Part shown: positions 6,509 to 62,888 of the stretch, in pieces
Numbering within the stretch: position 1 is the first letter of the stretch
How the letters are laid out: each line of letters opens with the position of its first letter
DNA from: Prevotella sp.
GTDB taxonomy: Bacteria; Bacteroidota; Bacteroidia; Bacteroidales; Bacteroidaceae
DNA length: 64,000 bases
Direction of reading: 5' to 3'
Assembly: GCA_017645645.1 (NCBI GenBank)
Contig: JAGCOB010000024.1
Span: 1-64,000, forward strand
Notes under the pieces: generated by a model
The model's input: the letters and a program-made list of their open reading frames with translations, nothing else
The model's database searches: none
What the model was told of the DNA's origin: nothing
Made by a program: the position numbers and the translations under genes

Positions 6509-7877
6509 TATGAAGAAATACATGTGGAGGGCAGTAGGAATCCTATTTCTTACTTCTTACCTCTTACCTCTTACTTCTCAAGCACAAACCTACGAGAATC
6601 AGTTCCGCCGTCCAGTGAGTGACGTGATGCGGGATGTGGCAAAACGCTTTGACGTGAGGTTCAAGTTCGATGCGAATGTCGATACAGCAGGTGTGACACT
6701 GATGTATGCCGACTTCCGTATCCGTCCGTATTCGCTGGAGCAGACACTCGATAATATCTGTAAGTATTTCGACTGGAACTGGTGGAAACAGTCTGGCAAC
6801 CTCTATAAGATCAAACGCTATGAGTATCCCCGTCGTCATGAGGACGAGGGACGACAGATGCTCGACTACCTGTCCACCTTATATAATAATAAGGTGGAGT
6901 GGGAGGCTCGGCGAGACAGTCTTCGTCGTGAGGTACGCCAGCGTCTGGAACTGGATGCCTTCCTTGACTCATGTGTGTTGGTGAAGAATAAGAAAGGACA
7001 GATGGAACGCCCTGTGATTCTCTCTAAGATCCGTAAGCATGACGGTTATACCACGCAGAACATCTGTATAGAGCTGACACCAGGGCAGCATCTGTTTGGA
7101 ACGATTTATGCTCCGAGTACTCAGAGTTCTCGGAGTACTCAGAGTTCTCTGAAGCATGCACTCATCATCTGTCCCGATGGTCATTGGCCTATGCGCTATC
7201 GAAAGGACGAACAACAGCGACTGGGTACACTCGCACGGATGGGTGCCATCTGTGTCGACTTTGATCTGTATGGCTGGGGAGAGTCTGAGAAAGAGGTAGG
7301 TGCTGAGGCTCATCATACCAGTCGTGCGCATGTCTATCAGGCAGCCTGCGGCTATATCCTCCTTGACTGGATGTTGAAAAACCGCAAGGATATCGACCCG
7401 GAAAGAGTGGGGGTGATGGGAGGCTCAGGAGGAGGTACCCATACTGTCCTGCTGTCCCTGTTGGATGAACGGGTGACGGCATCGGCTCCCGTGGTGCATC
7501 TCGCCTCACACTTTGACGGCGGCTGCCCTTGTGAGAGTGGTAAACCCGTACAGCTTGCCGCTGGTGGAACCTGTGAACCGGAACTTGCTGCCGTCATGGC
7601 TCCTAAACCGATGCTCATCGTCTCTGACGGAGGAGACTGGACATCGTCCGTTCCTACTCTTGAGTTCCCTTATCTGCAACGTATCTATGGCTTCTATGGT
7701 GCCCAAGACCAGGTGCGTAATGTCCACCTGCCCGATGAGCGTCATGACTTCGGGAAGAACAAACGTCAGGCGGTCTATGACTTCTTTATCGATGTCTTCC
7801 ACCTCGACCGTTCCATGCTTGACGAGAGTAAGGTGACGATAGAACCGGACGAGCAACTCAAATCTCTCTACAAATGA
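6501..7877 (+). CDS. CE19-like pectin methylesterase (alpha/beta hydrolase with STN-like N-terminus)
   Basis: 458 residues; the signal peptide ends near SQAQ. Residues about 30-100 resemble a secretin/TonB short N-terminal (STN) domain, an odd addition for an esterase. The rest is an alpha/beta hydrolase. The nucleophile elbow GGSGGG puts Ser309 in place, and the catalytic His is probably His415 (DERHDF). The combination matches B. thetaiotaomicron BT1017, founder of CE19, a methylesterase acting on the RG-II homogalacturonan backbone. It overlaps the upstream gene by 8 nt and the downstream ATG by 4 nt. A heptamer tract (6549-6576) encodes the signal-peptide core, and a 9-nt repeat (7115-7150) is inserted near residue 210. 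An acetylesterase role cannot be excluded. Confidence 0.75.
   Translation: MNDMKKYMWRAVGILFLTSYLLPLTSQAQTYENQFRRPVSDVMRDVAKRFDVRFKFDANVDTAGVTLMYADFRIRPYSLEQTLDNICKYFDWNWWKQSGNLYKIKRYEYPRRHEDEGRQMLDYLSTLYNNKVEWEARRDSLRREVRQRLELDAFLDSCVLVKNKKGQMERPVILSKIRKHDGYTTQNICIELTPGQHLFGTIYAPSTQSSRSTQSSLKHALIICPDGHWPMRYRKDEQQRLGTLARMGAICVDFDLYGWGESEKEVGAEAHHTSRAHVYQAACGYILLDWMLKNRKDIDPERVGVMGGSGGGTHTVLLSLLDERVTASAPVVHLASHFDGGCPCESGKPVQLAAGGTCEPELAAVMAPKPMLIVSDGGDWTSSVPTLEFPYLQRIYGFYGAQDQVRNVHLPDERHDFGKNKRQAVYDFFIDVFHLDRSMLDESKVTIEPDEQLKSLYK
6549..6576 (+). repeat. Heptamer tract T2, four units, inside a signal peptide
   Basis: CTTACTT, CTTACCT, CTTACCT, CTTACTT; encodes the hydrophobic LTSYLLPLTS core of the CE19-like signal peptide. 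Confidence 0.85.
7115..7150 (+). repeat. 9-nt tandem repeat T3, four units
   Basis: GAGTACTCA and GAGTTCTCG alternate (ABAB). Being a multiple of three, it adds STQSSRSTQSS without changing frame, on a loop ahead of the alpha/beta-hydrolase core. Confidence 0.85.
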
Positions 7878-24836: not shown

Positions 24837-24867
24837 CAAAGATACAAATAATTTGTAAAACGCCAAA
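24837..24867 (-). promoter_or_regulatory. Probable promoter of the type ISP gene
   Basis: On the minus strand: -33 TTTG (24864-24867), 19-nt spacer, -7 TATCTTTG (24837-24844). The -33 box lies inside the direct repeat copy 24844-24930. The transcript leader would be about 300 nt. Confidence 0.65.
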
Positions 24868-24930
24868 GGATTTGGAGGAAAAAAGTAGAAGCCCCCCTCC
24901 TGACCTCCCCCTGTTGAGGGAGAGGGAAAA
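24844..24930. repeat. Direct repeat flanking the RhuM-like gene, copy 1
   Basis: Begins ACAAATAATTTG, contains CCAAAGGATTTGGAGGAAAAA-like sequence and ends in a C-rich then G-rich stretch. Copy 2 is at 25729-25815, 885 bp away, in the same orientation. Confidence 0.85.
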
Positions 24931-25669: not shown

Positions 25670-25728
25670 TTTAATTTGAGAAATTTCGAACAAGAGTATT
25701 TTCAAGACTTCAGAGAAGACTAAAAAAC

Positions 25729-25815
25729 ACAAATAATTTGTAAAACTCCAAAGGATTTGGAGGAAAAATGTGGGAGACCCTCTCCTGACCTCTCCCTGTT
25801 AAGGGGGAGGGAAAA
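25729..25815. repeat. Direct repeat flanking the RhuM-like gene, copy 2
   Basis: Same order of motifs as 24844-24930, with scattered mismatches in the middle and in the G/C-rich end. Confidence 0.85.
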
Positions 25816-54765: not shown

Positions 54766-55026
54766 TCATTTCGCATCATCCTCTATAGCCTTAAACATAT
54801 CCTCTGCACAACAGTAGAGTTCTTCTTCAGGATATTCAGTTCTAGACATGGCTTCCTTGATGGCAGCCTTAGTTGTCTCATTAGGCTCATGGTACACAAT
54901 ATCAAGCAGCACGCTCTCCACATAGTTGTTCAATGTGCGATTTTCTCGTGCAGCATTGCGCTTCAGTCCTTCAAGGAGATCAGCCCTTAGACGGAAAGAT
55001 GCAGGTTTCCTTACTATTGTTGCCAT
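54766..55026 (-). CDS. Ribbon-helix-helix antitoxin-like protein, apparently orphan
   Basis: 86 residues. The N-terminal ATIVRKPASFRLRADLLEGLKRNAARENRTLNNYVESVLLD is a ribbon-helix-helix DNA-binding domain; the acidic C-terminal half (KEAMSRTEYPEEELYCCAEDMFKAIEDD) would bind a toxin. Such proteins repress their own operon with a RelE/ParE-type toxin encoded directly downstream. Downstream (below 54766) there is only the repeat block, and no toxin-like frame is visible on either side, so the toxin seems to be lost or unlinked. A consensus promoter lies at 55059-55090. It borders the left end of the island. Confidence 0.8.
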   Translation of the reverse strand: MATIVRKPASFRLRADLLEGLKRNAARENRTLNNYVESVLLDIVYHEPNETTKAAIKEAMSRTEYPEEELYCCAEDMFKAIEDDAK

Positions 55027-55140: not shown

Positions 55141-55167
55141 AACAAAAAGGAGTGCTTGGGGCACTCC
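55141..55167 (-). terminator. Intrinsic terminator, displaced from the 62790 gene
   Basis: GGAGTGC (55149-55155), loop TTGGG, GCACTCC (55161-55167), followed on the minus strand by TTTTTGTT. It sits right after the stop codon of the duplicated gene end; the copy beside the intact gene lacks the second arm. Confidence 0.8.
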
Positions 55168-55273
55168 TAAGATGTTACTTTTGGAACAGCCACTCGACTT
55201 CTCCGGAGGGACTGTTGAGGCCGCAGTCGCGGGGTTTGATGTCGCTAGTAGTGAAGCCTGCCACCATGAGGAT
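55160..55273 (-). repeat. 114-bp direct repeat, left copy (island boundary)
   Basis: About 93% identical (8 mismatches) to 62775-62888. On the minus strand it encodes the gene end MVAGFTTSDIKPRDCGLN...WLFQK plus the stop and first terminator arm. It is a 3'-end fragment with no start of its own. Confidence 0.92.
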
Positions 55274-55275: not shown

Positions 55276-57389
55276 CGGCAAGCTTGATGGAAGTATTCCC
55301 AGATGAATACCATCGACATGGTATCAAGTTCGCAATAACGTAGCAGAGCCTGACGCAGGGCATCATTCATTCCCTCACCTTCACAGAACATCAGTTTATT
55401 ATAGGCAGTCAGGGCAGCACCACCATTGGCGACTTCAAAGTTGTCCTCGTCGGCAGTCAACTGTTCCATCTGTTCCATATCCTCTTCACTCATGCCAATC
55501 AGTTGACCTACAGACGGCAGTTGATGATAAGGACTGTCAACATGGCCGTCAGCATCTATTTGAATCCATGCCAACGGATCATCCTGACTGATGTTCAGAC
55601 TCTTCATCTCAGAGGTACCATAAATAGGTTTGCTATACTTGTCCTTTAGATACTGGCTACTGTTCAGAACGGCTGGTAGCACCTGTTTGATACTATTACT
55701 GCCATGCATCTCGTCGAGTTGGTAGAAATAGCGCTTTACCACTTGCAACAGGTCTACCATATCACGTGGACCCTCGTAGAGATCGCCTTTCTTCTCATCG
55801 TGGTTATGTGTGATGCTACGAATGAAGGCTATCAGTTCATCCTTATCGCTTTCATTACTCTCAGCCAATTGTTGGGCAATAGTCCGCAGGATGCTGTTCT
55901 CATGGGTGGCATAGCGGAAGATAGTGCCTTCGTCCTGAGATAACTGACGACGTAATTCGCGAACAAACTCGAAGTTGGGGAACTTCGTCACGTCCTCGTT
56001 CAGATACTGTCCGGCATGCTCTATATGTCCATCTTCATGGATGATATGGTGCGAGAACTGGAACGCAACCTGTTCGTAGGGTTTCATATCGATATAATAA
56101 GGTAGAGCAACAGCTGTGGTCTCGAAGTCAATCATGTGTAGCGGATAGTGCCATGTTTTCATTTCTTCGCGCAGGCCATCCACGTCCAGATAAGTGTTGC
56201 CATCGATATGGTTAGCAAATCGGCTGAGGATGTCTTTGTCATTCGTCTCCATTCCTATCTGCAACCATTTGCGCTGATAGTCGTCCAAGCCTGGTGCATC
56301 TGGTGTCTTCTCATTAAAGAATTTCAGTTCCTTTTCAGTCAGTTGGTCCATGAAATATTTTCCTTCGCTGACCCATTTGCCACGATTGGTACTAAGACTA
56401 CTGCCGTTTAATGTGGCGATAAGCGGACGATGCTCGTAGTCATCTTCACTCACTTGAGTGAGCCAGCATTCACGTTGGCCGTCTTTCTTTTCACTATCAG
56501 TAGTACAATGGAACTCACACTTCAGACACTTGCCTGCCAGTTCTATTGGTGCAGGGCAACGATTGCCATTACAATAGAATTCAGCTGCCCAGTTGATGAA
56601 TGGTACAAAGCGCATCCCCATGCAGGTAGGATTCTTTTCCGTCTTCTGCTCAGTGGTCTCGCCTGCAATGATGGTATCACAGAGTTCATCCACATCGAAA
56701 GGCGTTACTACCTGTACCTTACTTTGGGCTATCCGTTGGCGAGCATCATTCGCCATCACAGCCTCGGCACGACCTTGCTGGTTCTTCTCAATCTTAAACA
56801 ATTGGTTCAGACCATCGATGTCAGCACACTTGCTCTTATCTGCCATCATGAGAAAGGCTTTGACGCTATAGGTCTCGTTGGGATACAGTTCTTTGAGGGC
56901 ATTACATACCACATATTTCTGGAATGCCACATCGTAGACGTAGGGACGGATGCCGCTAGCAACAGCACCTTTGGGCCTGGAACTGATAAACTTATCCGTT
57001 TCTGGATTCCACGACTTCGCCTTCACCTCTATCAGTTCGATGTTATTGCCATCCTTCTTCAGAATATCCACACGCACAAACAGATTGCCATAAAGGAAGG
57101 CAGCCTCTGCGATGTTCACCTGGTCGCGCTGCATCAACTCCTGCGTACGATGCAGCGATTCCTCATGTCCCATGATGTCCTTCAGGTCGCAGTCATCAGG
57201 TACATCACAATACACCTTTGCCAGTTCACCTACTTGGAAACCGCCTTCTGCCAACGACTCTAAGAACTCGTCGTTGGCATTGGCGTTCTCATACTCGTCC
57301 GAATGGCCGTAATAATATAGTTTATGCGGACAACTTAGCGCAATCTTAAACGCTGATTTGGTCAATAATCGAGAGTTGGTAACAGCCAT
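55245..57389 (-). CDS. DUF2779 protein: Cas4-like PD-(D/E)XK nuclease with DEDD exonuclease-type C-terminus
   Basis: 714 residues. The N-terminal half is RecB/Cas4-like: RVDILKKDGNNIELIEVKAKS puts D...ExK near residues 108-122, and Cys residues near 273-293 (CNGNRCPAP, GKCLKCEFHC) could hold an iron-sulfur cluster. The C-terminal half is the DUF2779 domain, an RNase H-fold exonuclease: MIDFET near 419, THENS near 499, HGSNSIKQVLP near 563, LRYCELDTMSMV near the end. Acidic and His residues agree with a DEDD-type site. Its last ten codons and stop (55245-55247) lie inside the 114-bp repeat, so its end was formed at the island junction. The ATG overlaps the HTH gene by 28 nt. Likely DNA processing or defence; function unproven. 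Confidence 0.8.
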   Translation of the reverse strand: MAVTNSRLLTKSAFKIALSCPHKLYYYGHSDEYENANANDEFLESLAEGGFQVGELAKVYCDVPDDCDLKDIMGHEESLHRTQELMQRDQVNIAEAAFLYGNLFVRVDILKKDGNNIELIEVKAKSWNPETDKFISSRPKGAVASGIRPYVYDVAFQKYVVCNALKELYPNETYSVKAFLMMADKSKCADIDGLNQLFKIEKNQQGRAEAVMANDARQRIAQSKVQVVTPFDVDELCDTIIAGETTEQKTEKNPTCMGMRFVPFINWAAEFYCNGNRCPAPIELAGKCLKCEFHCTTDSEKKDGQRECWLTQVSEDDYEHRPLIATLNGSSLSTNRGKWVSEGKYFMDQLTEKELKFFNEKTPDAPGLDDYQRKWLQIGMETNDKDILSRFANHIDGNTYLDVDGLREEMKTWHYPLHMIDFETTAVALPYYIDMKPYEQVAFQFSHHIIHEDGHIEHAGQYLNEDVTKFPNFEFVRELRRQLSQDEGTIFRYATHENSILRTIAQQLAESNESDKDELIAFIRSITHNHDEKKGDLYEGPRDMVDLLQVVKRYFYQLDEMHGSNSIKQVLPAVLNSSQYLKDKYSKPIYGTSEMKSLNISQDDPLAWIQIDADGHVDSPYHQLPSVGQLIGMSEEDMEQMEQLTADEDNFEVANGGAALTAYNKLMFCEGEGMNDALRQALLRYCELDTMSMVFIWEYFHQACRNPHGGRLHY

Positions 57390-58102
57390 AATAAGGGTCT
57401 TTTCGTTTTATGAATACGTTCAGTCAGATTACCTATGTGGAACTTGATATCATTATCGCCAAGGCAGTACCAGTCGTCATCATCGCTTGGCTCCTCGTAA
57501 TTGATATGATTGCGATATTTTCCATCTTTATCATCTGCTATCAGTTCAGTCAGCGCATCTTCGGTCGCATACCAGATGGCTCCCGCTAATCGCGGATGGT
57601 TCTTCGCTAACCAAGGGAAGAAGTTCTCGTCGAGTGCCTCGTAGTTCATATCGCTTAATGGACCTTCTTCAATAGCATTGCTATAGACATATACGAGTAA
57701 CGGGAACAATTCTTGTGGCAGCATATCGAGGGTCACATCGTATTTCACACCATTGATGATCAGAGTGACATCAAGCACATCGATTTCCTGATAGCCATCC
57801 TTGATATCCTCATCGACGAAAAACTCTTTCTCGTCGTCTTGCAGTGTGAACGCCAGCATATCCGTTGTGGGTTCTGCTGGTTCGTGACACCCTTCTTTCT
57901 CCATCTCTTTGGCGTAAAGGGCAAAGAAGTTGGTTTTCAGTGCACGACTGATGAGCATCAACAACTTCGTATCTATGCTGTCGCGCTTTATGATATTATA
58001 CACATTGGTGCGTGTGGTGAAGATGGGATTGGCCAGCTTTGGAGCTTTTACGCCTTGGCGCTTCATCTCTTCTTCAATGAGTTTTCCAATATTAATTTCC
58101 AT
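57362..58102 (-). CDS. HTH-domain protein of unknown function
   Basis: 246 residues. The first 65 (INIGKLIEEEMKRQGVKAPKLANPIFTTRTNVYNIIKRDSIDTKLLMLISRALKTNFFALYAKEM) form a Cro/C1-like helix-turn-helix. The rest is acidic and unrecognised (FFVDEDIKDGYQEIDVLDVTLIINGVKYDVTLDMLPQELFPLL). The layout, DNA-binding head plus sensing or partner-binding body, fits a regulator of the island, and its overlap with the DUF2779 gene ties the two together. Its own promoter (58138-58169) lacks the TGTC-N9-GACA dyad found at three other island promoters, as expected if it is the regulator of those and not its own target; that is inference. Confidence 0.75.
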   Translation of the reverse strand: MEINIGKLIEEEMKRQGVKAPKLANPIFTTRTNVYNIIKRDSIDTKLLMLISRALKTNFFALYAKEMEKEGCHEPAEPTTDMLAFTLQDDEKEFFVDEDIKDGYQEIDVLDVTLIINGVKYDVTLDMLPQELFPLLVYVYSNAIEEGPLSDMNYEALDENFFPWLAKNHPRLAGAIWYATEDALTELIADDKDGKYRNHINYEEPSDDDDWYCLGDNDIKFHIGNLTERIHKTKRPLLWLLPTLDY

Positions 58103-58618: not shown

Positions 58619-58635
58619 TGTCAATTAAATGGACA
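58619..58635. promoter_or_regulatory. Dyad operator candidate 1, TGTC-N9-GACA
   Basis: TGTCAATTAAATGGACA, between the divergent promoters of the 120-residue and 449-residue genes, 8 nt upstream of the minus-strand -33 box. Confidence 0.65.
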
Positions 58636-58653
58636 AAGATATGTGTGGAATAA

Positions 58654-58685
58654 TTTTGCTGTTATAAATATTGTTTGTATATTTG
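58654..58685 (+). promoter_or_regulatory. Promoter of the 449-residue gene (leader copy A)
   Basis: -33 TTTTG (58654-58658), 19-nt spacer, -7 TATATTTG (58678-58685). Sequence from here to ATGGCAA is homologous to 60360-60437. Confidence 0.8.
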
Positions 58686-58725
58686 CAGGAGATAATAATA
58701 ACGTTAAACTTAAAACAAGAGAATT

Positions 58726-60075
58726 ATGGCAACGCAAAAAAAAGAAACAATCGCAGAAAAGCTGCAAAGAGCTCAAAAGATTATATTGGACTCTTTTGTG
58801 GACTCATTAAAGGATAAAGATGGAAATAAATTGAGTTCACGTGAATATTATAGAAATGTTATTAATGCATTGAAGATGGAGGAAGCTTTCTCGTCTAATA
58901 GGGAAAGAAACTTCATGGAACTATTAATAAGAAAGTTGCCAGCAAAGTCTTTAGCTAATGAAATCGATAATCTTTTAAATTCTATGGATGACGCCTTGAA
59001 ACGTTTTAAATGCAATACTGACCCTAAATACAAAAAAAGCTATAAGACATATGTGAACAAATTTATTCTTTTTTTAAAAAATAAGGAAAATCAAAATGAT
59101 TTGAGAGCAAATCTGACTCAGGCTAATTTAAATTTTAAGAATGATGCTGAGACCAATGCACTATACTTAGATAAACCCGGTATGATATATATGCCAAATA
59201 TGTTACGAACAAAACTCCAATCTAGACTTAGGTGTCAAGACAGAGTATCTGGAGATAAGATATGGTTGCCATTAAGATTTATAGCTAAAATTTATAGTAC
59301 AGCCATAAAAATGAACATAATTACCGAAAATTTATTTTTAGATTGGCTTGATAATTTAGTTGATAGTGTTAATATACATTATAATGATAACGGTAAAGTT
59401 CAGCATTTTACAATCAATCAAGGAGTGTCACTATGGTTGACCCCAAATGATAATGAATATGATGTTATCATAATTGATCCTAACGGTAAAGAGCATAAAG
59501 CATTAACACCAACAGGAAAAGGAAATGAGAAAATACCTATGAAAGTTAAAAGTATTTCTGAAATAGCCATTGACCATGTTAAGTCTATTGATCGAACACT
59601 TAGAGATTTGTCAGACGAAGATCATTACTATAATGATAACAAACTGCCAGAATTGATGAAGGTCTCAGATAAATATAAAGCAATACAAGCGGAAGATGAC
59701 CCTAACGAGGACGAGGCTATAAAAGAATTATTAACTTCATGGAATAATCCAATTGATCTTCTAAAATTGAAAGACGAGTTATATTCAATCAAAAAAGATG
59801 GGTTGCTTAGGCTTATGGCTTCAAAATATAACTCACAAAAAAGTAATGGAGATACATTTAAAGAAATTCGCAAAATAGACAATGATAAGTATATTGGTGT
59901 TATAGAAACAGGTATTAAGAGAGCAAACTCAAAAGACAATAAAGAGATGACACTATACCAAGAATTGAATAATAATTATCCGGCAGAATCTCTTCTTATA
60001 GATGTCAGTGGTAGTCTAAAAGGAACAAATATTTATGAGATAGAAGAATTAGAGGATATTATCGACAGAATCTAA
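58726..60075 (+). CDS. Unrecognised AT-rich 449-residue protein (cassette A)
   Basis: 449 residues, soluble, Lys/Asn-rich, with clearly lower GC than the neighbouring pectin genes; no signal peptide, no recognised domain. The N-terminal 120 residues are helical (AEKLQRAQKIILDSFVDSLKD, NFMELLIRKLPAKSLANEIDNLLNSMDDALKRF). A middle beta-rich part (HFTINQGVSLWLTPNDNEYDVIIIDPNG) and an acidic C-terminus (GTNIYEIEELEDIIDRI) follow. The first codons and the 70 nt before them match those of the 127-residue gene at 60431, although the proteins are unrelated. The stop is one base before the ATG of the small membrane gene. A defence effector, phage-related or toxin-like role is possible, but nothing in the sequence settles it. 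Confidence 0.8.
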   Translation: MATQKKETIAEKLQRAQKIILDSFVDSLKDKDGNKLSSREYYRNVINALKMEEAFSSNRERNFMELLIRKLPAKSLANEIDNLLNSMDDALKRFKCNTDPKYKKSYKTYVNKFILFLKNKENQNDLRANLTQANLNFKNDAETNALYLDKPGMIYMPNMLRTKLQSRLRCQDRVSGDKIWLPLRFIAKIYSTAIKMNIITENLFLDWLDNLVDSVNIHYNDNGKVQHFTINQGVSLWLTPNDNEYDVIIIDPNGKEHKALTPTGKGNEKIPMKVKSISEIAIDHVKSIDRTLRDLSDEDHYYNDNKLPELMKVSDKYKAIQAEDDPNEDEAIKELLTSWNNPIDLLKLKDELYSIKKDGLLRLMASKYNSQKSNGDTFKEIRKIDNDKYIGVIETGIKRANSKDNKEMTLYQELNNNYPAESLLIDVSGSLKGTNIYEIEELEDIIDRI

Positions 60076-60076
60076 A

Positions 60077-60277
60077 ATGAAACACCTCCTTGCAGCCCTC
60101 TCCCTCCTGCTATCAATAGCACTGATATGTAGTCCGCTATATTTGGTATATATTGGTTTCGCAGGATCAAATGTCAACTTTTGGGTGAGAGTGACGCTCG
60201 TGGTGATAGGGTTGGTACTTTGCCGAGTGGTAAAGCCCATCTCTATCATCACGGGCAAGGACTGGAAGGTGGTTTAG
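60077..60277 (+). CDS. Small two-helix membrane protein
   Basis: 66 residues with two transmembrane segments (HLLAALSLLLSIALICSPLYLVYIGF and VRVTLVVIGLVLCRVV) and a short basic tail (KPISIITGKDWKVV). The ATG is one base after the stop of the 449-residue gene, so translation is coupled. Its 3' part lies in the 128-bp repeat; a second, headless copy of that part is at 60822-60901. Its stop lies tail to tail with a fragment of the ATPase gene end. Function unknown; small membrane partners are common beside effector genes. Confidence 0.7.
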   Translation: MKHLLAALSLLLSIALICSPLYLVYIGFAGSNVNFWVRVTLVVIGLVLCRVVKPISIITGKDWKVV

Positions 60278-60326
60278 AAACCGATTTTTGGTTGCTATCT
60301 TCTCTAACTTTTCCTGATCACACTGG
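60198..60326. repeat. 128-bp direct repeat (cassette tail), copy 1
   Basis: About 90% identical to 60822-60949 with a one-base indel. Contains the intact end of the small membrane gene and, on the other strand, a fragment of the ATPase C-terminus (CDQEKLEK then diverged). Confidence 0.9.
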
Positions 60327-60333
60327 GGATTGT

Positions 60334-60350
60334 TGTCTAAAATATTGACA
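60334..60350. promoter_or_regulatory. Dyad operator candidate 2, TGTC-N9-GACA
   Basis: TGTCTAAAATATTGACA, extended to TTGTTGTC (60330-60337) with GACAACAA (60347-60354). 8 nt upstream of the -33 box of the 127-residue gene. Confidence 0.65.
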
Positions 60351-60358
60351 ACAAAACC

Positions 60359-60389
60359 TTTGGTTGTATAATAATAGTTTGTACATTTG
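60359..60389 (+). promoter_or_regulatory. Promoter of the 127-residue gene (leader copy B)
   Basis: -33 TTTG (60359-60362), 19-nt spacer, -7 TACATTTG (60382-60389), followed by a leader homologous to that of the 449-residue gene, including AACTTAAAA and ATTATGGCAA. Confidence 0.8.
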
Positions 60390-60430
60390 CTGCCGATAAT
60401 AGAAACGTTTAACTTAAAAACAAAACAATT

Positions 60431-60814
60431 ATGGCAAGTATTCTTATTGGAATTGTAATTAATCAGAGTTGTTGTGACCTGGATTTTGGAATAAAGTTGG
60501 CAGATGATGTCATTGAAAAGATTGAGCAAAAGTACAAAAAGGCTCTTCAAGAATCTGGAATGGATGAAGATGATTTTGGTCCTACTTATTATGAGCAATT
60601 GAAAAAAGAAGATAAGGAGTTAGCAGATAAAATTGAAGATGCAGTATGGGATACTTTTTATGACTTGATTAAGTATGGATACGACTGTGAGGATGATCGT
60701 GTTGAAGCCATGTATAGAGTGGATGAACAAGACGAAGAAGGAAACTGGTATCAGACATATGCTATCGGCAATAAATTTGAAATCGACTTAACTGATTTTC
60801 CAAGAATTTTATAA
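60431..60814 (+). CDS. Unrecognised acidic 127-residue protein (cassette B)
   Basis: 127 residues, acidic (DDVIEKIEQKYKKALQESGMDEDDFGP, EDDRVEAMYRVDEQDEEGNWY), helical first half and beta second half, AT-rich, with no known motif. The start codon, the next two codons and the leader match those of the 449-residue gene, while the rest differs. The stop is followed after 7 nt by the 128-bp tail repeat. This looks like the content of the same slot replaced by a different gene. A strongly acidic small protein could be an antitoxin, an immunity protein or a DNA mimic; that is speculation. Confidence 0.75.
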   Translation: MASILIGIVINQSCCDLDFGIKLADDVIEKIEQKYKKALQESGMDEDDFGPTYYEQLKKEDKELADKIEDAVWDTFYDLIKYGYDCEDDRVEAMYRVDEQDEEGNWYQTYAIGNKFEIDLTDFPRIL

Positions 60815-60821
60815 GAAGATT

Positions 60822-60949
60822 TCGTGGTGATAGAGTTGGTATTTTGCCGAGTGGTAAAGCCCATCTCTATCATCACGGGCAAGGATTGGAAGGTGTTTTA
60901 GAAACCGATTCTTGGTCGCTGCTTCTCTAATTTTTCCTGATCACAATGG
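60822..60949. repeat. 128-bp direct repeat (cassette tail), copy 2
   Basis: Contains a headless end of the small membrane gene (RVVKPISIITGKDWKVF, 60822-60901) and the true 3' end of the ATPase gene. The two stop codons overlap at 60898-60901. Confidence 0.9.
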
Positions 60950-62655
60950 CTGATGAGTACTGAGAGGTCATCAGCATCGTCACCATGCAAGATGCTGTCG
61001 ATAGCATGATGGCGGGCGATATTCTCTATCTGACCACCACTGAAGTCATAGCTGGCAGCCAATTGACTGACGGCATCGGCTGAAAGCGAGGGAATCATAG
61101 TCTGCCAGATATGCTGGCGAGCCTCAACAGTAGGCTTGTTGAACTTAATCTTATAAAGGAAACGACGCTCGAAAGCCTTGTCCATATTCTGTTCCAAGTT
61201 GGTGGTAGCGATGAGGATACCATCGAGCGTTTCCATCTCTTGCAGGATGATATTCTGGATGGAGTTCTCCATCTTGTCCACACTATGCTCCGCCATCTCT
61301 TGACGGCGGTTGATGATAGCATCTGCCTCATTGAATAGCAAGATGGGCGTCACCTTGCAGTCCTTTACCTTCTGGCGATAATCATCGAACAGTGCCTTGA
61401 TGTTCTTCTCCGAGTCACCCACCCACTTGCTCTTAATCTCCGAGACATTCACCTGCATGATGTCACGACCAGTCTGACGAGCCAACTGCAAAACAGTCTC
61501 CGTCTTACCCGTTCCAGGCGTACCATAGAACAGGCAGGTAAAGCCACAACGGAAGCCTTTGTCCTGCAAACGCTGGTGAATCTGCTGGTAGTTCTCTTCG
61601 TTAAGTAGACTTGTCAGTTCGTCGACCTGCTTGCTGGTAGCCTCGTCGAAGAACAGTTGGTGGGCAGTGATGTCCTTATGGCTCTTCAATCCAGGGGCAG
61701 GTCCGTCGTCTTGTGTCAACTTGATGTCCAGTTCTTTAAACAGCACACGCTTGGCTTTCATGGACAGACAGAAAACTTTTCGGTTGCCAAATCCTTCATC
61801 GTTGGCAAACTCTATCAATTTACGCTGTTGTAATCCCGTTTCTTCTTTCAGCAACGATGAGCGGTATTTACGCCAATCATCGTTCTCAATGAAATCACTA
61901 AACTCATGCAATTGGATATGGTTATCGAAATAATTGACAGAACGACTGACCATAAACAACAAGACAATGAAATCGTAGCAACCCAAATCGTAAACCGACA
62001 GCATTTCCGAGAAATGCAATTCCATATTACTGTCAATCAGCAAGTGAAGGCGTTTCTCCATTCCCTCGATAGTCAACTCATCATTATTGCGCTGTTCGAA
62101 GATTCTGCTCAACTCAAACACCAGGTCTTTGCACGACAGATTCGTCAGCTTTCTTTTCTGAGGCACTTCGTTATTGTTCAGTGCTTCTACATTATGATAA
62201 GGAATACGATAGGTGGGCCATCTACCACTTTGGTTGCAAATCACAAAGTCGCGTTCCACCAGCCCTTCTATCTCTTTCATATAAGGCAGAATATCAATGG
62301 GGGCACAATCCAAATGCTGGCAGAACTGCATTATGTGAATCTGCTGGTCGTGAAAGAAATTCACTATCAGGGAAAACATTAATGCCTGCTCATGGTTGAT
62401 GTCGAGTCGCTTGCTAATATAATTCAGAGCCTCTTCCGCCCCGATAAAGAATTCGCCACTCAGTCTTGAATCCTCCGATAGTTTAATGACTGCTTTGATG
62501 GCTGCCAACAATGTTGGCTCCTCGTCACCGAAGGTGAAACGTTCTACCTCCAACGTGTCTCCGTCGTCGGCAGTTATCTTCGTCGTTTTGGTTTTACACT
62601 TCTTACCGTTGAGAGCGGCGATAATGCTGGGGTGGATGTCTTTCTTTTTAGCCAT
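60898..62655 (-). CDS. AAA+ ATPase of the island
   Basis: Start set at ATG 62655 (MAKKKDIHPSIIAALNG) with AAAGGA upstream; the frame continues 23 codons further through the promoter and is not used. 585 residues. About 330 residues of unrecognised helical N-terminal region precede a single AAA+ module: Walker A YGTPGTGKT near 380, Walker B ILLFNEADAI near 438 (Asn in the first acidic position), sensor ATTNLEQNMDKAFERRF with the arginine finger, and a small lid domain. It is similar in plan to CDC48/FtsH-like or Bacteroidales defence-island ATPases, with the N-terminal part probably choosing the target. Convergent with the cassettes: its stop overlaps that of the small membrane gene fragment. 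Confidence 0.88.
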   Translation of the reverse strand: MAKKKDIHPSIIAALNGKKCKTKTTKITADDGDTLEVERFTFGDEEPTLLAAIKAVIKLSEDSRLSGEFFIGAEEALNYISKRLDINHEQALMFSLIVNFFHDQQIHIMQFCQHLDCAPIDILPYMKEIEGLVERDFVICNQSGRWPTYRIPYHNVEALNNNEVPQKRKLTNLSCKDLVFELSRIFEQRNNDELTIEGMEKRLHLLIDSNMELHFSEMLSVYDLGCYDFIVLLFMVSRSVNYFDNHIQLHEFSDFIENDDWRKYRSSLLKEETGLQQRKLIEFANDEGFGNRKVFCLSMKAKRVLFKELDIKLTQDDGPAPGLKSHKDITAHQLFFDEATSKQVDELTSLLNEENYQQIHQRLQDKGFRCGFTCLFYGTPGTGKTETVLQLARQTGRDIMQVNVSEIKSKWVGDSEKNIKALFDDYRQKVKDCKVTPILLFNEADAIINRRQEMAEHSVDKMENSIQNIILQEMETLDGILIATTNLEQNMDKAFERRFLYKIKFNKPTVEARQHIWQTMIPSLSADAVSQLAASYDFSGGQIENIARHHAIDSILHGDDADDLSVLISHCDQEKLEKQRPRIGF

Positions 62656-62689
62656 AATATATCCTTTCTTTAAATTATTAATTTCGCTG

Positions 62690-62728: not shown

Positions 62729-62745
62729 TGTCAATATAATGGACA
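62729..62745. promoter_or_regulatory. Dyad operator candidate 3, TGTC-N9-GACA
   Basis: TGTCAATATAATGGACA, 7 nt upstream of the ATPase -33 box; 15 of 17 bases match candidate 1. Confidence 0.65.
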
Positions 62746-62774: not shown

Positions 62775-62888
62775 GGCACTCCTAAGATGTTACTTCTGGA
62801 ACAGCCAGTCGACTTCACCGGAGGGACCGTTGAGGCCGCAGTCACGGGGTTTGATGTCGCTGGTTGTGAAGCCAGCCACCATGAGGAT
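62775..62888 (-). repeat. 114-bp direct repeat, right copy (island boundary)
   Basis: The 3' end of the 62790 gene plus stop and one terminator arm; see 55160-55273. After this point the sequence is island-specific and no terminator hairpin can form. Confidence 0.92.

Follow-up and report, generated by a model that had tools for sequence, protein, structure and literature searches.

The window analysed here is the first 64,000 nucleotides (nt) of a contig in a rumen-type Prevotella genome bin (2.09 Mb, 64% complete, 29 contigs). A part of it, framed by a direct repeat, carries the genes of an AAA+ ATPase, a small hydrophobic protein (c6), a variable gene (V; here V449, coding for 449 amino acids, aa), a further small protein (c8), an XRE-like regulator and a DUF2779 protein, and also a gene for 127 aa (Table 1). 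On balance, this region is read as an acquired, defence-like island that is regulated as one unit, has one exchangeable effector slot and probably acts against phages. Our confidence in this reading is somewhat better than even, its functional part being deduced from the genes.

A gene slot with exchangeable content

The island set comprises 11 Prevotella loci: the window, G218 (P6B1), RGIG4329 (L100), G213, G073, G040, G295 (P5-50), G291, G323, G110 and G269. Nine are complete, and G295 and G323 are cut by contig ends. The relatives' genomes represent one per species and are in many cases bins; related named records are Prevotella or Prevotellaceae. Open reading frames (ORFs) of the relatives come from a simple script that takes the longest ORF; at least one gene (c8 of G073) escaped it. 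The closest ATPase loci have in common the ATPase, c6 (65-66 aa, hydrophobic), c8 (120-133 aa), the XRE-like regulator and DUF2779, plus a gene V. An earlier note on this DNA had cast the ATPase as the constant partner of variable cassettes; the ATPase is indeed constant, but the constant part also includes c6, c8, the regulator and DUF2779. Only the two loci cut by contig ends (G295, G323) are missing c8. Its apparent absence from G073 was rejected, the gene being intact there (120 aa, 87% to c8 of G291).

Gene V falls into four families in these 11 loci. The 449-aa family (n=4) fills the slot in the window, G218 (46% identity), RGIG4329 (47%) and, distantly, G213 (24%; E 2e-9 to the G218 protein), and an HNH-like family (n=5) in G073, G040, G295, G291 and, distantly, G323 (E about 1e-5). 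The V protein of G110 is of the PD-(D/E)XK type (PDDEXK_4, 66.2 bits against a gathering score of 22.3, Pfam E 4.6e-18) and matches the PADLOC candidate defence family PDC-S26 (E 1.3e-16). That of G269 is a 318-aa orphan (n=1, as for PD-(D/E)XK), and a separate HNH-like gene lies elsewhere in the G269 island. Merging the 449-aa and HNH-like families into one was rejected (profile comparison probability 0.6%). Relatives that always carry the same two genes in the same order, which the earlier note had named as evidence contrary to its cassette model, are therefore not what is found.

Two close pairs of loci reveal how the content changes. The DNA of G040 and RGIG4329 is 86% identical between the ATPase leader and the c6 start codon and 89% identical across DUF2779. 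In between lie unrelated V genes (HNH-like versus 449-family), and identity is lost at the start of c6 and at the end of DUF2779. Between G110 and G213, the DNA on the two sides of V is 91% and 95% identical, the V genes are of the PD-(D/E)XK type and the 449 family, respectively, and identity breaks off at the c6 start and the DUF2779 stop. Because the flanks are 86-95% identical in both pairs and the breaks coincide with the ends of V, the gene was exchanged as a unit; judged from these alignments, V is replaced whole between relatives while its neighbours stay. A 945-aa ORF of G386 (L120:4050-6887), in which DUF2779-like and 449-family parts are joined, is also counted in favour of the island reading.

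In 10 of the 11 islands, V immediately precedes c6 or overlaps with it; in G073, c6 is found beyond DUF2779. A leader of its own, running divergently from c8, stands before V in the window, G218 and G291; in five loci (G040, RGIG4329, G110, G213 and G269), V follows DUF2779 without a V-type leader. Among the remaining loci, the contigs of G295 and G323 end at V, and in G073 a phosphoribosyltransferase-like gene comes first. Given these two arrangements, it is c6 that generally adjoins V, rather than the leader. The proposal that content is swapped by recombination in the shared leader and tail ends has to be changed accordingly: the leader forms the left end only in one arrangement, five of the 11 V genes lack it, and the exchanges in the two pairs end at the DUF2779 stop and the c6 start.

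The components are distributed unevenly. Relatives of the ATPase occur in 48 of 200 genus genomes, the 127-aa family in four of 200 (one of them a regulator), and a single-sequence search with V449 finds one of 200; a profile of the 449 family matches 9 of 398 genomes. Single-sequence scans with the 449-aa gene gave no relative in genome-contig or viral-contig collections, and none of the 127-aa gene or c6 was found in viral contigs. The c6 profile matches 14 of 398 genus genomes, ten of which have the ATPase island, the other four being G167 (tf2-5), G042, G049 (E 6e-17 and 7e-4) and G290 (E 9e-4). Among 149 relatives from 60 genera, c6 is present in five genomes, all in one genus. A c6 scan of 84,980 species returned 13 loci, of which 12 are Prevotella-type and one is a Ruminococcus match at E 7e-4, and added RGIG4329, the eleventh island, and a rearranged P. 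pectinovora locus (L105). Leader or tail at loci without the ATPase, which the earlier note had counted against itself, is encountered to some extent: c6 stands without an ATPase in the stretch read in G167, G042 and L105, and without the island ATPase on the one contig read in G049. Locus tf2-5 (L056:6740-14994) is a Prevotella island with an FtsK-type ATPase, c6 and two 127-aa-type domains, and its contig carries no AAA+ ATPase.

The tandem repeat and the second slot

Beside the ATPase gene, the earlier note described two unrelated genes that share a leader and a tail. Both repeats are real and above chance. The tail copies are 92% identical over 129 columns with one indel, and the whole genome bin contains no further copy. 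Each consists of the last 26 codons of c6 (41-66) and some 50 nt from the 3' end of the ATPase gene, which converges on c6; the stop codons of the c6 remnant and the ATPase overlap in the second copy. The leaders of V449 and the 127-aa gene are 79.7% identical over 79 nt, through ATGGCAA. Their homology starts at about 58655 and 60359, and further upstream they share a palindrome, discussed below, rather than alignable sequence. The control consisted of 650 leaders of other ORFs of at least 120 aa, taken from the window and 47 fetched loci, some of which overlap, so that not all leaders are independent. The two leaders reach a local score of 46. Against the V449 leader, one of the 650 reaches this value (47, a G291 slot gene), and against the 127-aa leader three do, all slot-type leaders of other genomes; the best non-slot controls score 29 and 31.5, respectively. 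The idea that the likeness is that of a usual Bacteroidetes promoter was rejected on this control.

Repeat pairs of at least 60 bp number four in the window, three of them at the island. A stricter filter (direct, at least 85% identity, less than 12 kb apart) yields eight pairs in 29 other loci (543 kb); repeats of the island type are uncommon but not unique. The sole window pair away from the island lies at 24838-24930 and 25723-25815 (88%).

In the window, c6 is followed by a degenerating piece of the ATPase 3' end; next come a V-type leader and the 127-aa gene, and a c6 remnant that begins at codon 41 leads to the genuine end of the ATPase gene. The independent genome P5-50 repeats this arrangement, from c6 and the ATPase-tail remnant through the leader and the 127-type gene to the ATPase, and joins remnant and leader at the same junction, but its V is HNH-like and unrelated to that of the window, and a hairpin-like repeat (by eye) stands where the window has the c6 remnant. 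At the DNA level, the P5-50 ATPase gene shares 94% identity with the one in G291, a locus that has no 127-aa gene, and the identity stops at the ATPase stop. The tandem of leader, gene and tail is best read as a duplication in which the content of the second copy was replaced. The unit of leader, V, c6 and ATPase end would have been duplicated in tandem, and V and the first 40 codons of c6 in the second copy would have given way to the 127-aa gene. The first slot would then have been exchanged independently (449-aa family in the window, HNH-like in P5-50), and the second kept.

Alternatively, the 127-aa gene may have been inserted between c6 and the ATPase gene by illegitimate recombination, with a 128-bp target duplication and no duplication of the slot, a course that we consider unlikely. 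In its favour, a 114-bp duplication of the neighbour's 3' end also borders the island as a whole, and in G291 and G323, two islands with no 127-aa gene, the 3' ends of c6 and the ATPase gene overlap directly by a few bases. There is likewise a 72% match over 107 nt between the 127-aa leader and the c8 leader of G218, so that a leader of the regulon could have come with the gene. The 127-aa leader is, however, closest to V leaders: the window copy is 84% identical over 109 nt, and the G295 copy 88% over 94 nt, to the V448 leader of G218, both starting right at the tail junction. In addition, the same second position of G218 (L077:8900-12587) carries a copy of a V-type leader, 87% identical over 60 nt and lacking the palindrome, that leads into other genes, an FGE-sulfatase/PEGA gene and a 595-aa gene. 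With the ATPase leader, the 127-aa leader gives no match at the cut-off used, and the P5-50 copy matches there in the 17-nt palindrome.

For the preferred duplication, tail identity provides no date, since the c6 part is well conserved both between genomes (69-77 of 80 positions agree) and within the window (76 of 80). In the ATPase part, 40 of 49 positions agree within the window and 37 of 49 within P5-50.

The 127-aa gene is 76% identical to its P5-50 counterpart, with a ratio of nonsynonymous to synonymous substitution (dN/dS) of 0.30, and thus looks selected as a protein. Its family aligns with the C-terminal domain of the regulators (G110 regulator, E 4.5e-6); the window protein against the window regulator alone reaches only E 0.016. 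The earlier claim of a duplicated slot with swapped content is supported by a slot that varies within conserved flanks and by the tandem itself, but the 127-aa gene is never seen as V in the 11 islands and resembles part of the regulator. Because of this resemblance, and because free-standing relatives occur (tf2-5, L105, L120 and G009), the 127-aa protein is read as acting on or like the regulator, which, or the sensing of which, it would tune.

Insertion site, putative common control and possible role

The repeat that frames the island is a copy of the 3' end of a neighbouring 868-aa gene, which is present in 25 of 119 genomes, its own included. This gene is presumably a GH115 member; Pfam gives only a sub-threshold GH20b match. 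In four of the five relatives read, an 868-aa-type gene directly adjoins a homologue of window 50-52.7 kb; in the fifth, G035, other genes occupy the site (L137:1453-4741), which we take to be an HEPN/MNT pair and a 791-aa gene. About 10 kb are for this reason regarded as an insertion at a used site, and the window island, going by these flanks, is acquired. Just outside the left repeat, an 86-aa protein (54766-55026) is presumed to resemble a ribbon-helix-helix antitoxin; it has no Pfam match at E 0.01. A cobalamin adenosyltransferase gene is found close to the islands of G291, G218 and G269 (Pfam on G218 only). By alike start sequences, L076, L077, L078, L056 and L081 lie near a cobalamin adenosyltransferase gene, a DUF2795-type gene or both, perhaps a shared insertion hotspot. 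In G110, a 181-bp direct repeat (93%; L041:626-805 and 6992-7172) surrounds a gene block just upstream of the ATPase, a similar style of insertion.

The palindrome TGTC-N9-GACA was derived from leaders of the window and P5-50 and afterwards checked in the remaining relatives. Eight loci, one of them the window, contain 19 exact sites, and 17 of these precede an island gene by 79-110 bp (from the centre to the start codon); mononucleotide shuffles predict about two in all. It is present at 21 of 23 listed leaders, or at 22 if c8 of G073 replaces the G073 regulator, which comes after c8; the V leader of G323 has none. Of the strict form TGTCNATNNNATNGACA, the 2.09-Mb bin contains three copies: one each ahead of V449 and the ATPase gene, and one inside a coding gene, the last of which was rejected as a regulon marker. 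The leader palindrome is a putative control element common to the island, and its form is operator-like. What the earlier note took for a cassette end is therefore shared by the slots as proposed, but also holds this putative operator. The XRE-like regulator presumably binds the palindromes and acts through them, by activation rather than repression.

V may be a nuclease-type effector directed against phage or plasmid DNA, which the ATPase would remodel or switch. The HNH-like proteins of G073, G040, G295, G291 and G323 owe their name to a motif seen by eye; Pfam scans gave no family that passes the cut-off, and the PDB sequence search gave nothing under E 0.01. For V449, c8 and the 127-aa gene, neither Pfam nor NCBIfam has a model that scores above cut-off. 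Sub-threshold Pfam matches (449-aa protein, DUF2600 E 0.008 and DUF87 0.13; 127-aa protein, JMY E 7.7e-4, 19.5 bits against 27; c8, HrpJ 0.06) and PHROGs matches of E 0.013 or above for the same three were taken as chance. The DUF2779 protein would process nucleic acid; that of G110 matches PADLOC Cas4 (E 1.6e-6), and PMC3985635 places DUF2779 among the 3'-5' exonucleases and describes members with a PD-(D/E)XK-like DUF83 part.

Several points weigh against an island of this kind. G040 and RGIG4329 have no N9 site; they have TGTC-N10-GACA at four of six and three of five island leaders, counts that are post hoc because this form was defined after the G040 leader had been seen, and the G269 island has neither form. 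The helix-turn-helix (HTH) part of the regulator stays below the Pfam cut-off (DUF6471, 15.5 bits against 26.8, E 0.016). V449 has no nuclease match by Pfam, PDB sequence search or AlphaFold model (five sequences, mean pLDDT, a model confidence score, of 64; a usable core that matches no solved nuclease), and its HNH-like reading comes from a motif read by eye. Members of the 449 family also occur outside the island (G368, G163, G289, beside an approximately 155-aa gene, G302 and G177), and the family has no match in phage or plasmid collections. PADLOC-DB 2.0, searched with the ATPase and the 449-aa, 127-aa, c8, regulator and DUF2779 proteins of the window, has only AAA-type matches for the ATPase and no family for the other five. 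On the ATPase tree (11 islands and two outgroups; the window and G218 rows are long and their placement unsure), the V groups require four changes, where two is the minimum possible, and label shuffles are as low in 40 of 200; the 449 family alone requires four. The HNH-like group requires two, with shuffles as low in 16 of 500, and is somewhat clustered. By the shuffle result and this clustering, V does not mix freely among the islands. Together with the match to the c8 leader, the shuffles disturb a clean cassette picture and have slightly lowered our confidence.

An addiction island of the toxin-antitoxin type, in which V is the toxin, c8 and/or c6 the antitoxin or immunity protein, and persistence results from addiction instead of defence, is rather improbable. 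In G110 versus G213, where V is exchanged (L041 9157-9746 and L080 12522-13118), dN/dS is 0.86 for c8 and 0.72 for c6, as against 0.08 for the ATPase and 0.06 for DUF2779 (dS 0.22-0.37), a rapid change that seems to accompany the exchange of V. In G040 versus RGIG4329, where V is exchanged too, the values are ordinary (c8 0.20, c6 0.14). A match of c8 to V type was rejected, because c8 similarity does not track it: the window c8 is 60% identical to that of G291, with its HNH-like V, and 23% to that of G218, with a V of the same family. A simple toxin-antitoxin pair would, moreover, not need the ATPase and DUF2779.

The earlier note had likened the locus to interbacterial immunity or effector cassette arrays. 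The tandem of leader, gene and tail with variable content is what such an array would look like, but the V of G110 is a PD-(D/E)XK nuclease, other V proteins are taken as HNH-like, and Pfam shows no toxin-delivery, immunity-protein or recombinase family above cut-off in the window island and the V proteins (secretion signals were not searched for). Nothing seen points to such arrays, and the analogy was given up as very improbable.

Starting from the defence-like reading, a more far-reaching proposal is offered tentatively and is possible at best. The island could stand for a new class of defence island whose slot is swapped ORF by ORF and can be duplicated in tandem, and in which a single operator governs every part, its spacing shifting from N9 to N10 with the regulator version. 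A free-standing copy of the regulator's sensing domain, retained in the second slot, would serve as a decoy or antagonist gating the effector.

Table 1. Features of the island and its borders in the window.
Feature	Position	Strand	Basis or remark
Left direct repeat, copy of the 3' end of the gene at 62790	55160..55273		93% over 114 bp with 62775-62888; matches G035 3' end
DUF2779 protein, 714 aa	55245..57389	-	PF11074 E 1.1e-24; predicted 3'-5' exonuclease family
XRE-like regulator, 246 aa, putative HTH	57362..58102	-	best Pfam DUF6471 E 0.016, below cut-off; C-terminal domain related to 127-aa protein
c8, 120 aa	58175..58537	-	homologous genes at nine of the 11 loci; Pfam matches below cut-off
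Intergenic palindrome TGTC-N9-GACA (c8/V449), putative operator of the two genes	58619..58635		motif search
V-type leader (promoter region, 5' untranslated region, ATGGCAA)	58655..58732	+	leader alignment, chance control, repeat analysis
V449, 449 aa, variable slot	58726..60075	+	invariant R...Q.R, H of IDH, L.LM....N; candidate HNH-like
c6, 66 aa, hydrophobic (membrane, by eye), complete copy	60077..60277	+	family in 14 of 398 genomes
First tail repeat	60198..60326	+	c6 codons 41-66 and ATPase 3'-end remnant
Palindrome TGTC-N9-GACA upstream of 127-aa gene	60334..60350		one mismatch to strict form
Second V-type leader	60359..60437	+	79.7% identical to V449 leader; 84% to G218 V448 leader over 109 nt, counted from about 60329
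127-aa gene, putatively duplicated slot	60431..60814	+	homologue of regulators' C-terminal domain
Second tail repeat	60822..60949	+	c6 remnant and true ATPase 3' end
AAA+ ATPase, 586 aa from ATG	60898..62658	-	PF00004 E 6e-25; best defence profile IetA, AAA part only
Palindrome TGTC-N9-GACA upstream of ATPase	62729..62745		motif search
Right direct repeat, 3' end of neighbouring 868-aa gene (62790-65396)	62775..62888		repeat analysis

Relation to known systems

The AAA domain of the window ATPase matches IetA (113.7 bits in PADLOC, 105.7 bits in NCBIfam), but far below the NCBIfam cut-off of 510 bits, and an N-terminal part of about 330 aa lies outside the match. IetAS combines an AAA ATPase with a protease partner, IetS; the Pfam scan, which covered the ATPase and six other window proteins, found no peptidase among these six. 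In the polymorphic toxins of the Rhs, CDI and Maf types, the C-terminal tips of secreted proteins are displaced by recombination in conserved ends. The island resembles them in that a variable part is displaced via conserved ends, and differs in that whole ORFs are swapped and a palindrome is shared.

If the island is a defence system, it is one without a name in the catalogues searched. Islands with flanks that are 86-95% identical and different V genes amount to natural experiments on the sensing part versus the acting part, the common palindrome offers a directly testable handle on how the island is switched, and slot duplication is a step by which such islands could gain extra genes. A search of the open-access literature found no description of the island, its ORF-precise slot or the duplicated slot. 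Interchangeable gene pools in defence are already established, and it is the island itself that is apparently undescribed. PMC12799240 describes modular anti-phage systems (CRISPR-Cas, CBASS, Avs, Lamassu and Hachiman) as a core with an interchangeable pool of enzymes, often nucleases. There, the exchanged genes are typically fused to the core and include nuclease-protease pairs, whereas in the window island the whole ORF is replaced and the slot has apparently been duplicated.

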